Source of the DNA: Lampropedia puyangensis
GTDB taxonomy: Bacteria > Pseudomonadota > Gammaproteobacteria > Burkholderiales > Burkholderiaceae_C
DNA length: 64,000 bases
Direction: 5' to 3'
Assembly (NCBI RefSeq): GCF_004833285.1
Contig: NZ_STFG01000005.1
Location: 62,001 to 126,000 of the forward strand
Shown in pieces: positions 12,989-17,211 of the stretch. Within the stretch, counting starts at the first letter, position 1; each line of letters opens with the position of its first letter. The notes under the pieces were generated by a model. The model ran no database searches and had not been told where the DNA came from. It saw only the letters and a list, made by a program, of their open reading frames with translations. A program made the translations under genes and the position numbers.

Positions 12989-13866
12989 AGGCGTTCATTC
13001 AATGCTTGAGCGCTTATGGGGTGAGCCTTTGCATCGGCATCTACATTCGGCAGCAGCTGCGCCAGTTTGGGCAGCGCTGCCAAAGCATTGCGGGTGGTTT
13101 GCGCGGCCCAGGCCTCAAGTTCTACGCCCCGAAGTTCGGCGATGTGTGTCGCAATGCGCGGCAATTCTGCAGGGCTATTGCGTCCTTGCGGCTGGCCTTG
13201 CGCACGGGCTTCGGCATCTACATACAGCCAGTGCGGTGGGATGTCGGGGGAATCGGTTTCCATCACGATGGCATCACAGGGCAGGGTGCTGGCCAATTGG
13301 CGCAATTGCCTGGCGCGTTCATAGGTCATTGCGCCGCCAAAGCCGAGTTTGAAGCCCATGTCTAAAAACGCATGGGCTTGCTGCACGCTACCATTGAAGG
13401 CGTGGGCAATGCCGCCATGCGTGAAATGCGTTTGGCGCAGGTATTTGAGCACGCGGTCCACCGATTTGCGCACGTGCAAAATCACCGGCAATCGCTGGGT
13501 TTTGGCCAGCAGCAATTGTTCATGGAATACGCGTTCTTGCCAGACCGGATCCAGATTAACGAAATAATCCAGGCCAATTTCACCGACGGCGACCAGGCGC
13601 ACATCGCTGTGGTTGGCGCTGAGCATGGCGTCCAGCAGTTGGAGATCATCGGCTTGGCTCTCGGGCGTGTAGAGCGGGTGAATGCCTAGCGCGTAAGCAT
13701 CGCCAAAACGGTGGGCATCTTGTCTGGCATCATCCCAGGTGCGCTGCGCGACTGCGGGAATCACGCAGCAGGCCACGCCCAGCGCACGGGCACGTTCGCG
13801 CTCTTGCGCGCGGTCGGCGGCAAATTCGGGGGCATCCAAATGGCAGTGGGTGTCAATCCAGATCAT
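12985..13866 (-). CDS. TatD family metal-dependent hydrolase / nuclease
   Basis: TIM-barrel metallohydrolase of the TatD family, DNases and 3'-5' exonucleases linked to DNA repair and turnover. The metal-binding residues are all present in order: DTHCHLD at residues 4-10, GEIGLDYF, HVRKS, HAFNGS, and METDSPDIPP. The 293 residues start at ATG 13866 (MIWIDTHCHLD), the usual family start; upstream in-frame codons give an unconserved MPPYHRR. The stop overlaps the start of the deoxyinosine glycosylase gene. The divergent gbsR-like gene begins 100 bases away, and the palindromic operator lies between them, so the regulator could also affect this promoter. Confidence 0.92.
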   Translation of the reverse strand: MIWIDTHCHLDAPEFAADRAQERERARALGVACCVIPAVAQRTWDDARQDAHRFGDAYALGIHPLYTPESQADDLQLLDAMLSANHSDVRLVAVGEIGLDYFVNLDPVWQERVFHEQLLLAKTQRLPVILHVRKSVDRVLKYLRQTHFTHGGIAHAFNGSVQQAHAFLDMGFKLGFGGAMTYERARQLRQLASTLPCDAIVMETDSPDIPPHWLYVDAEARAQGQPQGRNSPAELPRIATHIAELRGVELEAWAAQTTRNALAALPKLAQLLPNVDADAKAHPISAQALNERL

Positions 13867-13915
13867 GCGGCGATGATACGGCGGCATGCAGATGCCTGCA
13901 TTCAGTCGAGCTGAT

Positions 13916-13949
13916 TTCTTTTATTTCTGTCTTGACAGAAATAAAAGAA
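13916..13949. promoter_or_regulatory. 34-base perfect palindrome, probable operator of the GbsR-type regulator
   Basis: Sixteen-base arms at 13916-13931 and 13934-13949 mirror each other around two central bases. The core TTATTTCT-N8-AGAAATAA (13921-13944) recurs with the same spacing at 14559-14582, before the downstream operon. The site covers the -35 box of the regulator gene, so binding would block transcription. It probably serves autoregulation. Confidence 0.8.
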
Positions 13950-13959
13950 GGAATAAAAT
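13932..13959 (+). promoter_or_regulatory. Promoter of the GbsR-type regulator gene
   Basis: TTGACA (13932-13937, full match), a 16-base spacer, TAAAAT (13954-13959, five of six). The expected start of transcription is about base 13966-13967, that is at the ATG itself, which suggests a leaderless mRNA. The -35 box lies inside the palindromic operator. Confidence 0.65.
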
Positions 13960-13966
13960 TGCGGCC

Positions 13967-14503
13967 ATGGAACTGAGTCAAAGCGCACACAAATTTGTTC
14001 TCCATTGGGGTGAGATGGGAGTGGCATGGGGGGTTAACCGAACTGTGGCCCAAATCCATGCCTTGCTGTTTTTTCATGGCAAACCGCTCAATGGCGAAGA
14101 GATTGCCCAAACCCTGAATGTGGCGCGCTCCAACGTCAGCAATAGCCTGCGTGAATTGCAAAGCCTGCGTTTGGTGCGGCTGACTCAGGTGCTGGGCGAT
14201 CGGCGCGATTACTACGAAACCTCGCACGATGTGTGGGAGCTGTTTCGCACCGTGGTGCGCGAGCGCAAGGAGCGGGAGTTTCAGCCCACGGTGCAGATGC
14301 TGCGCGACTTGGTGGCCTCGCCCGATTTTGAGCACGAAGCGCCCGATACCCAGGACCGGGTGCGCGAAACCCTGGCCTTGATGGATTCTTTGGGCGTGTG
14401 GGCCGATGAGATGCTGCGCTTGTCGCCCAGCACCTTGGTCAAGGTGCTGAACTTGGGGGCAAAGGTGCAGAAGTTTGTGCGTGGAGACAGTGCAGACAAA
14501 TAG
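13967..14503 (+). CDS. GbsR/MarR family transcriptional regulator
   Basis: DNA-binding repressor-type protein of 178 residues. The winged helix is at about residues 29-75: TVAQIHALLFFHGKPLNGEEIAQTLNVARSNVSNSLRELQSLRLVRL, with the recognition helix in ARSNVSNSLREL. The C-terminal half is helical and likely dimerises. This arrangement matches the GbsR branch of MarR-like regulators, first known from control of choline/betaine genes, but nothing here is a betaine gene. The ATG at 13967 is chosen because an upstream start at 13886 would run through the operator. The same palindrome lies before this gene and before the next operon, so those are its likely targets. Confidence 0.9.
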   Translation: MELSQSAHKFVLHWGEMGVAWGVNRTVAQIHALLFFHGKPLNGEEIAQTLNVARSNVSNSLRELQSLRLVRLTQVLGDRRDYYETSHDVWELFRTVVRERKEREFQPTVQMLRDLVASPDFEHEAPDTQDRVRETLALMDSLGVWADEMLRLSPSTLVKVLNLGAKVQKFVRGDSADK

Positions 14504-14558
14504 TCAGTGGTAAACGCGCATTAGAAAATGGTGGATCACATCCTTTTTATTTGAATAG

Positions 14559-14582
14559 TTATTTCTTTTTAGACAGAAATAA
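14559..14582. promoter_or_regulatory. Second copy of the GbsR-type operator, before the redox operon
   Basis: TTATTTCT (14559-14566), eight bases, AGAAATAA (14575-14582). Half-sites and spacing are identical to the site at 13921-13944, and the right half GACAGAAATAA is the same in both. It lies 68 bases before the first gene of the operon and overlaps its likely -35 box. Confidence 0.75.
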
Positions 14583-14598
14583 ACGAATGAACTGAAAT
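14570..14598 (+). promoter_or_regulatory. Candidate promoter of the DCC/SDR/DoxX/DUF2269 operon
   Basis: TAGACA (14570-14575), 17-base spacer, TGAAAT (14593-14598); each box matches the consensus in four of six bases. The -35 box falls in the same part of the palindrome as in the regulator's own promoter, which supports common repression. Confidence 0.45.
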
Positions 14599-14649
14599 GC
14601 ACGGTAGGTGATGTGTTTGGTAGTCGATGAATTGTTCAAAGGGGGTTCT

Positions 14650-15237
14650 ATGCAAGCAGCTCACAAACCAGCTACTCAGTGGCCGCTAACGGTCTTTTAT
14701 GACCATAGTTGCACCCTGTGCCGCAGCGAAATGCACAATATCAAAGCGCGCGACCATGCAGATGTGCTGCGTTTGGTCGATGCCTCGGATGCGCAAGCGC
14801 TGCTGCCACACGCGCCCGTCAAACCCCAGCAGGACCTAATGGCTTTGCTGCACGCTCGTGATGCGGCGGGTGTTTGGTATGTGGGGGTTGATGCCTTTGT
14901 TGTTATATACAAGGCGACTGATATGGGCTGGGTGGGGCGCATATTGTCTTGGCCAGTGGTGCATTCCATCGCGTCGGCCTTGTACCCCAGCGTGGCGCGC
15001 AACCGCTACCGCATGCCCAGCCGTTGGTTGTCGAATGCGTTTGAGGCCTCGCGCCAACGCGCCAGCAACCGCCAGGCGCAAGCTGTGCAGGCAGAGGCAC
15101 ATTGGCAGGCCAATCGTTGTGAGGCGGGCGCTTGTGAGCTGCGCGACCATGCTCCGACTGCGAATGTGGCAGGCAACCAAGCGGCCGCGCCTGCAGGTCA
15201 TCACGAGGCCAGTGCAAGACCGCATCAGCCTGAATAA
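14650..15237 (+). CDS. DUF393 / thiol-disulfide oxidoreductase DCC family protein
   Basis: Thioredoxin-like protein of the DCC family, function poorly known. The defining motif is at the N-terminus: FYDHSCTLCRSEM, with a CxxC pair at about residues 20-23, followed by the fold's VDASD and YVGVDAFVVIY segments. The C-terminal 55 residues are Ala/Gln/His-rich and hold a second Cys pair (RCEAGACELRDH), an unusual tail. I choose ATG 14650 because AAAGGGGG lies just before it; an upstream ATG at 14608 has no ribosome site. It is the first gene of a four-gene operon with an SDR, a DoxX-like protein and DUF2269. A role in thiol redox exchange is inferred. Confidence 0.88.
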   Translation: MQAAHKPATQWPLTVFYDHSCTLCRSEMHNIKARDHADVLRLVDASDAQALLPHAPVKPQQDLMALLHARDAAGVWYVGVDAFVVIYKATDMGWVGRILSWPVVHSIASALYPSVARNRYRMPSRWLSNAFEASRQRASNRQAQAVQAEAHWQANRCEAGACELRDHAPTANVAGNQAAAPAGHHEASARPHQPE

Positions 15238-15262: not shown

Positions 15263-16150
15263 ATGAAAGTACTGGTTTTAGGTGGCAAAGGATTTATTGG
15301 CCGGCATATCACCGCTGCCTTGCAGCAGCAGGGCCATCAGGTCGTGCAAGGCGTGTCAGCCCGCCATGCGCAGTCTTTGCAACCGGGCGATGTGGTGGTG
15401 GACTACGCGCGTGATACGCAGGCCGATGTCTGGCTGCCACGTCTTGACGGCGTGGATGCGGTGGTCAATGCCGTGGGGGTCTTGCGCGACACGGCCCAGC
15501 GCCCGATGCGCGCCGTGCACACTGACACGCCCGCAGCCGTGTTTGAAGCCGCCAGACGCCTGCAGCTGGCGCACCTGGTGCAAGTGAGTTCGCTCGGCAT
15601 CTCGCTCAACACCACACCGTATGGCATCACCAAACGGGCGGCTGAGCAAGCCTTGCAAACGCAAATGCAGGCCGGTTTATCGGCCACCTTGGTGCGGCCC
15701 AGCGTGGTGTTTGGCAAGGGCGGTGATAGCTCCAACCTGTTTTTGAACCTGGCGCGTTTGCCTGTGTGTGTATTGCCCGCCGTGGCATGGCGCACGCAAA
15801 TCCAGCCGGTGCATGTGCTGGAGCTGGCCCAAAGCATTGCCCGCATATTGGCCCTGCCACAGGCCGAGCGGCCTACGAGTTTGGATGCGGTTGGCCCGCA
15901 GGCCGTGCCTTTGTCGGGTTTTATTGCCAGCCTGCGTGCGCAACACCAGCGCAAACCGGCGCTGATGCTGAAGTTGCCAGATGGCCTGACCAAGGCATCG
16001 GCCAAAGTGGGCGATTGGGTGCCCGTCACCCCTTGGGGCAGTGAAGCGCTGGGCTTGCTGAGCCATGACAACGTGGCCGATGCCGCAGGCATCACCGCCT
16101 TGCTCGGGCGTGTGCCAACGCATTACAGCCAGCTGATGCAACACGCTTAG
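15263..16150 (+). CDS. NAD(P)-binding SDR family protein (atypical, NDUFA9-like)
   Basis: Atypical short-chain dehydrogenase of 295 residues. The N-terminal cofactor motif is VLGGKGFIGRHITAALQQQG at 5-24. Later parts are typical of the YbjT/NDUFA9-like branch: VVNAVGVLRDT, LVQVSSLGIS, YGITKRAAEQAL and VRPSVVFGKGG. AAGGAG precedes the ATG. In other bacteria this enzyme type is found fused to, or next to, a DoxX-like membrane domain, and here the DoxX-like gene follows directly. It sits 25 bases after the DCC gene. It probably passes reducing equivalents from NAD(P)H to a membrane or thiol partner; that is inference. Confidence 0.87.
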   Translation: MKVLVLGGKGFIGRHITAALQQQGHQVVQGVSARHAQSLQPGDVVVDYARDTQADVWLPRLDGVDAVVNAVGVLRDTAQRPMRAVHTDTPAAVFEAARRLQLAHLVQVSSLGISLNTTPYGITKRAAEQALQTQMQAGLSATLVRPSVVFGKGGDSSNLFLNLARLPVCVLPAVAWRTQIQPVHVLELAQSIARILALPQAERPTSLDAVGPQAVPLSGFIASLRAQHQRKPALMLKLPDGLTKASAKVGDWVPVTPWGSEALGLLSHDNVADAAGITALLGRVPTHYSQLMQHA

Positions 16151-16286: not shown

Positions 16287-16715
16287 ATGTATTCAGCAAC
16301 CCGTCAATGGTGCGCGCAGACCGGCATGCCTGCATCGCTGCATTACGCGGTCGTGGCTGTGTGGTTGATGACCGCCTGGGTCAGCTGGTTTGACCACTAC
16401 GGCTTTGGCGTGGCGCTGCTGGCGCAAAGCGGTATGGAGTCGGCTCTACTGCGCAGCAGTCTGATTTACGCAGGCGCTGCCTGGGATGCGCTAATTGGCC
16501 TGGGGCTGCTGTTCTGGCCCTCCAGGCCAATGTACCGCGTAGCCTTGCTGGGCATGCTGGTGATGACCTTGGCGGCCACCGTGCTGCAGCCCAGCTTGTG
16601 GTGGCATCCGCTAGGGCCGTTGTTTAAAAACATTCCGATTGCGGCCGTGCTGTGGTGGGGTAGTCAAGGGCCAGTGGCCAAACCTGAGGCGCGGGTTGAA
16701 AGCCCAGCGCAATGA
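16287..16715 (+). CDS. DoxX-like family membrane protein
   Basis: A 142-residue inner-membrane protein with four hydrophobic segments (YAVVAVWLMTAWVSWF, LIYAGAAWDALIGLGLLF, VALLGMLVMTLAATVL, NIPIAAVLWWG), the DoxX-like architecture. DoxX relatives are small subunits of quinone-linked oxidoreductases. I choose ATG 16287 because GAAGGAG lies before it; the frame is open upstream without a ribosome site. It comes 136 bases after the SDR gene and 16 bases before the DUF2269 gene. The pairing with the SDR suggests a split version of the SDR-DoxX fusion known in other species. Confidence 0.84.
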   Translation: MYSATRQWCAQTGMPASLHYAVVAVWLMTAWVSWFDHYGFGVALLAQSGMESALLRSSLIYAGAAWDALIGLGLLFWPSRPMYRVALLGMLVMTLAATVLQPSLWWHPLGPLFKNIPIAAVLWWGSQGPVAKPEARVESPAQ

Positions 16716-16731: not shown

Positions 16732-17211
16732 ATGAATAGCTATTTGGTCCTCAAGTACGTGCATATTCTCTCCAGCGTGTTGCTGGTAGGAACCGGTTTT
16801 GGTAGTGCGTTTTACTTGTTTTTTGCTAATCGCACGCGCGATGTATCAGCGATTGCTGCGGTTAGTCGCTTGGTTGTGCGGGCCGACTGGTGGTTCACCA
16901 CGCCTACGGTTGTCCTTCAGCCACTGACGGGGATTGCGTTGGTGCATTGGGCTGGCTGGGGGTGGGATGCCGCTTGGCTGCAATTGACGCTGGGCTTGTA
17001 TGCCCTTTCTGGTGCGTGTTGGCTACCTGTAGTGTGGCTGCAAATTCGTATGGCACGTATAGCGCTGCAGGCCCACCAACAAGGCGAGAACACATTGCCA
17101 CGCCGCTATTGGCAATACGCCAGGGTATGGGAGTGGTTGGGCTACCCCGCATTTATTGCCATGCTGGTGATTTACTGGCTTATGGTGCAAAAGCCACCGT
17201 TGTGGAATTGA
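16732..17211 (+). CDS. DUF2269 family membrane protein
   Basis: A 159-residue membrane protein of unknown function in the DUF2269 family. It opens with LVLKYVHILSSVLLVGTGFGSAFYLF, containing a conserved His in the first membrane segment, then an Arg-rich loop, VLQPLTGIALVHWAGWG, LTLGLYALSGACWLPVVWLQIRM, and a last membrane segment near the C-terminus. The histidine-bearing first helix resembles that of haem-binding membrane proteins, but no ligand can be assigned. AAGGAG lies before the ATG. It is the last gene of the operon controlled by the second palindrome. Confidence 0.85.
   Translation: MNSYLVLKYVHILSSVLLVGTGFGSAFYLFFANRTRDVSAIAAVSRLVVRADWWFTTPTVVLQPLTGIALVHWAGWGWDAAWLQLTLGLYALSGACWLPVVWLQIRMARIALQAHQQGENTLPRRYWQYARVWEWLGYPAFIAMLVIYWLMVQKPPLWN

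Follow-up and report, generated by a model that had tools for sequence, protein, structure and literature searches.

CydE, a GbsR-type protein from Alishewanella sp. WH16-1, has been footprinted on TATTTCAGAAATTTCTGAAAGTTCA and represses, and it is reported to be derepressed by sulfate (PMC6096048). CioR from Chromobacterium violaceum is induced by cyanide in vivo, though its authors did not judge it to be a direct cyanide sensor (PMC11837568). GbsR and OpuAR from Bacillus have the same MarR-type fold as the regulator discussed here, and have been modelled on Mj223; they differ from it in responding to choline and betaine, via a proposed aromatic cage, and in having osmoprotectant targets, and the same source describes the cage as missing in CydE (PMC6207618).

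The locus described here lies in a stretch of 64,000 nucleotides from Lampropedia puyangensis, which we call the window. An initial annotation noted the same palindrome before a GbsR-type regulator gene and before a four-gene operon, and suggested an autoregulated repressor with a local operon. The features are listed below.

13916 to 13949 (core 13921 to 13944), no strand: predicted operator 1, with perfect 16-nt arms flanking TT, overlapping the −35 box of the regulator
13932 to 13959, plus strand: predicted regulator promoter, TTGACA (13932-13937), 16-nt spacer, TAAAAT (13954-13959), 11 of 12 matches
13967 to 14503, plus strand: GbsR-type MarR-family regulator, 178 aa, no cysteine; Pfam MarR_2, 35.3 bits against a cut-off of 27
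14533 to 14552, plus strand: T-tract with a weak 4-bp hairpin (GGAT-CAC-ATCC-TTTTTATTT), identified by eye, directly before operator 2
14559 to 14582, no strand: predicted operator 2, between regulator and operon
14650 to 15237, plus strand: DCC1-like thiol-disulfide oxidoreductase (PF04134) with CxxC, E 3.5e-24; start codon chosen by eye
15263 to 16150, plus strand: extended SDR / NAD-dependent epimerase-like protein (PF01370), E 3.1e-19
16287 to 16715, plus strand: DoxX-like membrane protein (DoxX_3, PF13781), E 7.8e-19
16732 to 17211, plus strand: DUF2269 membrane protein (PF10027) with four predicted helices, E 9.2e-60; AlphaFold2 pLDDT 90

The locus is flanked by a gene for a TatD-type nuclease upstream, on the other strand, and by a GntP-like permease gene after the operon.

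The regulator protein

The MarR_2 match is above its cut-off, and the AlphaFold2 model (pLDDT 90) matches Mj223, Bcav_2135 and MepR, which places the protein in the MarR superfamily. Within this it belongs to the broad GbsR-type subfamily: 1KU9 (Mj223) comes first both by sequence (E 4.3e-12) and by Foldseek E-value among PDB entries, although 5jbr is higher by TM-score. The GbsR-type assignment made initially is thus correct, but the nearest characterised relatives are the cytochrome bd repressors CydE and CioR and not the betaine regulators. The regulator also scores only 44.2 bits against the NCBIfam equivalog for the choline regulator CudC, where the cut-off is 218. The most similar protein among named records is from Lampropedia aestuarii (99% identical).

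OhrR-type MarR proteins are cysteine-based redox sensors with a reactive cysteine. The window regulator has no such residue; it contains no cysteine at all, which excludes cysteine-thiol sensing within this protein. Of the 75 members of its clade (see below), 49 likewise have none and 26 have at least one.

The twin palindromes

As first noted, TTATTTCT-N8-AGAAATAA occurs twice, at 13921-13944 and 14559-14582, with no mismatch at either place. These are the only matches in the 64-kb window even when up to three mismatches are allowed, a tolerance at which dinucleotide shuffles of the window gave a mean of 0.08 matches, and two or more matches in 1 of 100 shuffles. Site 1 had been called a 34-base perfect palindrome (13916-13949); it does consist of two perfect 16-nt arms, but is not a palindrome in the strict sense because the central TT is not self-complementary. 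The two sites are 79% identical along a 42-nt stretch.

Across the genome (3.97 Mb in 76 contigs), the perfect pattern is again found only at these two sites, and the many stray copies that would have told against the initial suggestion are absent. Two mismatches add one further place, compared with three places for the reversed control pattern at up to two mismatches. At three mismatches there are 9 places against 10 for the control, which is background, and a wider regulon can therefore not be claimed from the motif search.

Conservation in relatives

A relative of the regulator was found in 145 of the 299 family genomes searched. The 59 loci of highest identity besides that of the window (51–99%) were taken as the orthologue set, and were examined together with 80 named loci. 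Site 1, scored as at least 15 of the 18 positions of the refined consensus aATTTCTGT-N4-ACAGAAATt and within 200 nt upstream of the start, is present in all 80 named loci and in all but two of the 59 family loci, two sets which overlap, include many near relatives (e.g., Variovorax) and are not independent samples. The conservation that had been anticipated for close relatives is therefore present. The two exceptions (L085 and L086) lack a site in the 200 nt upstream of their aligned start. Both have an SDR gene upstream on the opposite strand, and their N-terminus seems extended.

Site 2 is less symmetric than site 1. It is found in 51 of 59 family loci (at least 13/18 positions) and in 77 of 80 named loci (at least 14/18), where two of the 77 (L189 and L190) are doubtful because they coincide with the stop codon and the ribosome-binding stretch. 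When the score is relaxed to 11 of 14 positions within 350 nt, site 1 occurs in all 75 clade members and site 2 in 60, being absent or weak in the other 15; of 1980 Markov shuffles made from the upstream sequences of the 99 loci in the tree described below, 23 reached this score. The more distant class-level loci of the clade (about 48–53% identity) behave similarly by the looser score, with site 1 in 14 of 14 and site 2 in 10 of 14, and several of the class-level loci outside the family carry SDR, DUF2269 or DCC genes.

The position of site 1 is strongly constrained. In 59 of the 80 named loci it begins exactly 45 nt before the ATG; in these the operator bases TTTC and TTGACAGAAA never vary, whereas the flanks drift, TAnACT follows 16 nt further on, and the base directly before the ATG is always C.

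Promoters and transcript ends

A scan of 13850-14700 found TTGACA-16-TAAAAT as its sole promoter-like match. The initial suggestion that each palindrome covers a −35 box is thus borne out for site 1, which contains the TTGACA, and is not supported by the scan for site 2, where it called no promoter. Inspection of site 2 by eye yields no candidates other than TAGACA-17-TGAAAT and TTGAAT-18-AGAAAT. The TTGACT inside site 2 was considered as a conserved −35 box and rejected, because its position varies among loci. The TTG lying 9 to 7 nt before site 2 is conserved (71, 67, and 69 of 77 loci at the three positions).

At site 1, all 80 named loci have the TTGACA and 69 of them an acceptable −10, and in 64 of these 69 the ATG follows the −10 by 6 or 7 nt. 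In the window the start codon is 7 nt after the −10 (13954-13969). This spacing would put the start of transcription at or next to the ATG, and the regulator mRNA is therefore probably leaderless.

The T-tract just after the regulator gene is a recurrent feature: in 70 of 77 named loci the 30 nt before site 2 contain a run of at least five T, which in 64 of the 70 is 7 nt before the site, compared with 25 of 80 loci having such a run before site 1. A strict search for terminators in front of site 2 detected hairpins at 22 of 78 loci. The window is not among them, its 4-bp hairpin being called by neither the terminator scan nor the strict search, and for that reason only the T-tract is put forward as an end signal. 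The pattern suggests that transcription of the regulator gene stops short of operator 2.

Two sister clades

A tree of 99 rows was built by adding 20 lower-identity family loci and 19 loci from the wider class to the family set. Sixty-nine rows carried the label redox, comprising the window, its 59 orthologues and 9 class-level loci assigned by their neighbour genes; 18 were labelled by a neighbouring cydA gene, and 12 were unlabelled. The redox and cydA rows fall on opposite sides of a single branch with 100/99 support, though because the 59 orthologues were labelled by identity the fairer comparison is of the 9 class-level rows with the 18 cydA rows. The unlabelled rows divide six to each side. 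The regulator is thus outside the cydA-linked clade, across the 100/99 branch from it; the published CydE and CioR sequences are themselves absent from the tree.

The clades share the 7-6-7 operator geometry and differ in operator sequence at site 1. In the regulator's clade, 68 of the 75 loci have T/A at base 6 and its partner (A/A in 6, T/T in 1). The cydA-linked clade has a recognisable operator in 18 of 24 loci, A/T in 16 of the 18, and a downstream operator in none of the 24. The main half-site is therefore ATTTCTG in the regulator's clade and ATTTCAG among the relatives of CydE. This rule holds for site 1 only, because at site 2 base 6 is mixed (n = 60: T/A 23, T/T 25, A/A 6, T/C 3, C/A 2, A/G 1), and many second sites thus carry one CydE-type half. 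The proteins diverge in parallel: residue 53 is Ala in 75/75 and Ser in 24/24, residue 14 is Trp (75) or Phe (24), and residue 31 is His (74/75) or Tyr (24). In the structural model, residue 53 immediately precedes helix 54-66, the presumed recognition helix. Given that CydE was footprinted on a site with the same spacing and the half-site of its own clade, this type of palindrome is tied to GbsR-type proteins by experiment.

Motif specificity across genomes

The 38 regulator-bearing genomes of highest identity contain 45 exact matches to ATTTCNGTNNNNACNGAAAT, spread over 32 genomes (six have none), and 42 of the 45 coincide with the two sites of the locus, against a single match to the reversed pattern in the same 38 genomes. 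Of the three matches elsewhere, two precede cydD and one is about 400 nt upstream of cyoA. The last of these, ATTTCAGTCATTACTGAAAT (L113 1501-1520, on contig C3 of genome G188), lies before the gene for ubiquinol oxidase subunit II, hinting that a GbsR-type regulator may touch the cytochrome bo genes too.

There are 76 family genomes that have no orthologue, 58 of them having only a more distant relative (41–50% identity) and 18 none. An exact search of all 76 found no copy of ATTTCTGT-N4-ACAGAAAT. They hold three matches to ATTTCNGTNNNNACNGAAAT, none with the ATTTCTG/CAGAAAT form and all with ATTTC(A/G)GTAATTACTGAAAT; two of these are before cydD-like genes, and one is just upstream of a regulator relative that is followed by a gene for cytochrome bd subunit I.

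The downstream operon

Downstream genes were assigned over 4.5 kb by codon-based gene calling and tblastn, with sequence incomplete in 3 of the 59 family loci. Every one of the 59 has at least one of DCC, SDR, DoxX, DUF2269, C4 (a small unnamed membrane protein), and DUF4166. The individual counts are DCC 48, SDR 44, DoxX 23, DUF2269 28, C4 12, and DUF4166 5, so that the content varies, with DCC missing in 11 and SDR in 15 loci by tblastn over this distance, the three incomplete loci included. Variants include genes for a methyltransferase, SRPBCC and DUF4166 proteins, and a desaturase-like or FAD monooxygenase-like protein. At least one of the operon families is found downstream in 79 of 80 named loci and 10 of 15 further clade loci, compared with 0 of 24 loci in the CydE clade. 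Conversely, a CydA or CydD match is found downstream in 18 of the 24, while none of the 80 named loci has one above 45 bits.

Lampropedia aestuarii (L101, L134) keeps the regulator, both operators, DCC and SDR. DUF2269 was not found anywhere in its genome nor DoxX at the locus, and the operon is therefore shortened there.

That the same families recur behind one operator suggests a single pathway. The "thiol/quinone redox module" of the initial annotation is a reading of the protein families; a membrane redox role is our best guess from the NAD(P)-binding, CxxC and DoxX-type membrane parts, and it is a tentative one, somewhat short of an even chance.

DUF2269 was also looked at individually. 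One paper reports that it remotely resembles DUF989, a domain of membrane urate oxidase (E 0.15, PMC4562309). A relationship to HemJ was tried and is not claimed: hhalign against one HemJ-family protein gave a probability of 3% (E 0.013), and 8 of 41 family members match UPF0093 weakly (best E 0.017). Foldseek with the DUF2269 model (16732-17211) found no match at E ≤ 0.001; among the 50 weak, non-significant matches listed several are to subunit III of haem-copper oxidases, a likeness that may be that of a mere helix bundle.

Proposed mechanism and alternatives

A conserved palindrome is found at the regulator's own promoter and another before the presumed target operon, and we regard the palindromes as very probable operators of a GbsR-type repressor that regulates itself. 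We propose that the 178-residue protein binds as a dimer to ATTTCTG-N6-CAGAAAT (7-6-7) at both sites. At site 1 the bound repressor would cover the −35 box and so prevent synthesis of its own, probably leaderless, mRNA. Binding at site 2 would block a separate DCC-SDR-DoxX-DUF2269 unit that starts after the T-rich end of the regulator gene. Release would come from a ligand bound by the repressor rather than from oxidation of a cysteine of its own, inducing regulator and operon together, and the operon would probably serve a redox function linked to the membrane and involving NAD(P)H, thiols and/or quinones. The core of the original idea is strongly supported by conservation, position, co-occurrence and the published footprint of a relative. 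What we observe directly is the sequence, its conservation, the link between operator type and clade, and the co-occurrence with the operon genes; binding, dimerization, repression and promoter use we infer from these, and the chemistry of the operon and its inducer are guesses. Autorepression together with repression of the operon is very likely, and the complete scheme, with both sites bound, a separate operon unit and release by ligand, is with high confidence the best explanation. That the inducer is new, as was suggested at the outset, is plausible.

A quite different possibility, that the palindromes are RNA hairpins acting as terminator or attenuator, is suggested by the ability of site 1 to fold into a hairpin of 16 perfect base pairs separated by a 2-nt gap and by the location of site 2 soon after the regulator stop codon, but we regard it as highly improbable: the terminator scan calls neither palindrome, the T-tract precedes site 2 instead of following it, and the TTGACA in site 1 with TAnACT 16 nt further on puts site 1 upstream of the predicted transcript start. 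The regulator might instead bind both sites and activate, or act both ways, at site 2. Some MarR-family proteins do activate, and the scan gave no convincing core promoter at site 2 in the window. However, the characterised relatives CydE and CioR are repressors, and if the conserved TTG before site 2 belongs to a −35 box, the operator would be placed across the core of a promoter. Activation at site 2 is therefore unlikely.

The remaining candidate is a relative with 46% identity encoded in the same genome (genome G000, contig C67), which could cross-bind the operators; were it the main protein at both sites, the operon would be part of the cytochrome bd regulon. By eye, it has the CydE-clade residues at positions 14, 28, 31, 53, 60 and 81. 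The operators of that clade have the same geometry, and the CydE-type half of many second sites would suit such a protein. The genome moreover contains ATTTCAGTAATTTCTGAAAT (TAATTTCAGTAATTTCTGAAATTA; L040 1499-1522, equivalent to 9945-9968 of contig C7) about 12 nt before a gene for which CydD is the top NCBIfam match, the pattern expected for a CydE-like relative. Against this, the relative has no adjoining cydA and is itself absent from the tree, base 6 of site 1 and residue 53 divide by clade, and the 58 genomes that have only such a distant relative are among the 76 without ATTTCTGT-N4-ACAGAAAT. We consider it very unlikely that this relative is the main protein at the two sites. Upstream of its own gene (L102) is ATTTCAGAAATTTCTGGAAA, which is nearly the Alishewanella CydE footprint; a site of this type is absent from the 300 nt upstream of the relative in the related genome G188. 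Repression of both transcription units by the 178-residue regulator itself is the reading that we retain.

Comparison with known systems

In the open-licence literature searched, DUF2269 appears in two papers and DUF4166 in none, and the same literature (open-licence papers only) yielded no description of the operon or of the clade. A regulator–operator–operon unit of this kind gives a clear and testable handle on families that have no assigned role (DUF2269, DUF4166), and the identity of the inducer would point towards the function of the operon. The specificity code of GbsR-type proteins also becomes directly testable, since the own-promoter operators of related regulators differ mainly in a single base of each half-site. 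A wider picture can be drawn, although as a whole it is speculative and on balance unlikely, the more so because base 6 is mixed at site 2: that this is a second GbsR branch linked to respiration, sister to that of CydE, which controls an undescribed membrane redox module (DCC, SDR, DoxX, DUF2269, at times DUF4166 and the small membrane protein) in Beta- and Gammaproteobacteria, with an own-promoter operator that a single base in each half-site sets apart from the operator of the cytochrome bd genes in the same cell, and with an inducer new to the family, such as a quinone, a sulfur compound or a metal.

On the published evidence, the present locus resembles that of CydE in having a GbsR-type repressor ahead of its target operon, and the footprinted CydE operator, ATTTCAG-N6-CTGAAAg, equals the operator described here in length and spacing; the two differ in that CydE controls cydAB, has CAG rather than CTG in the half-site, and has a second footprinted site unlike the first (PMC6096048). 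CioR is likewise GbsR-type and autorepressed, and binds its own promoter in EMSA, but it controls the cytochrome bd genes cioAB, and its binding is lost with 100 uM Fe or Zn (PMC11837568). The mechanism proposed is of a known kind, while the clade, the variant of the operator at site 1, the twin-site plan and the target operon are, as far as our searches show, new.
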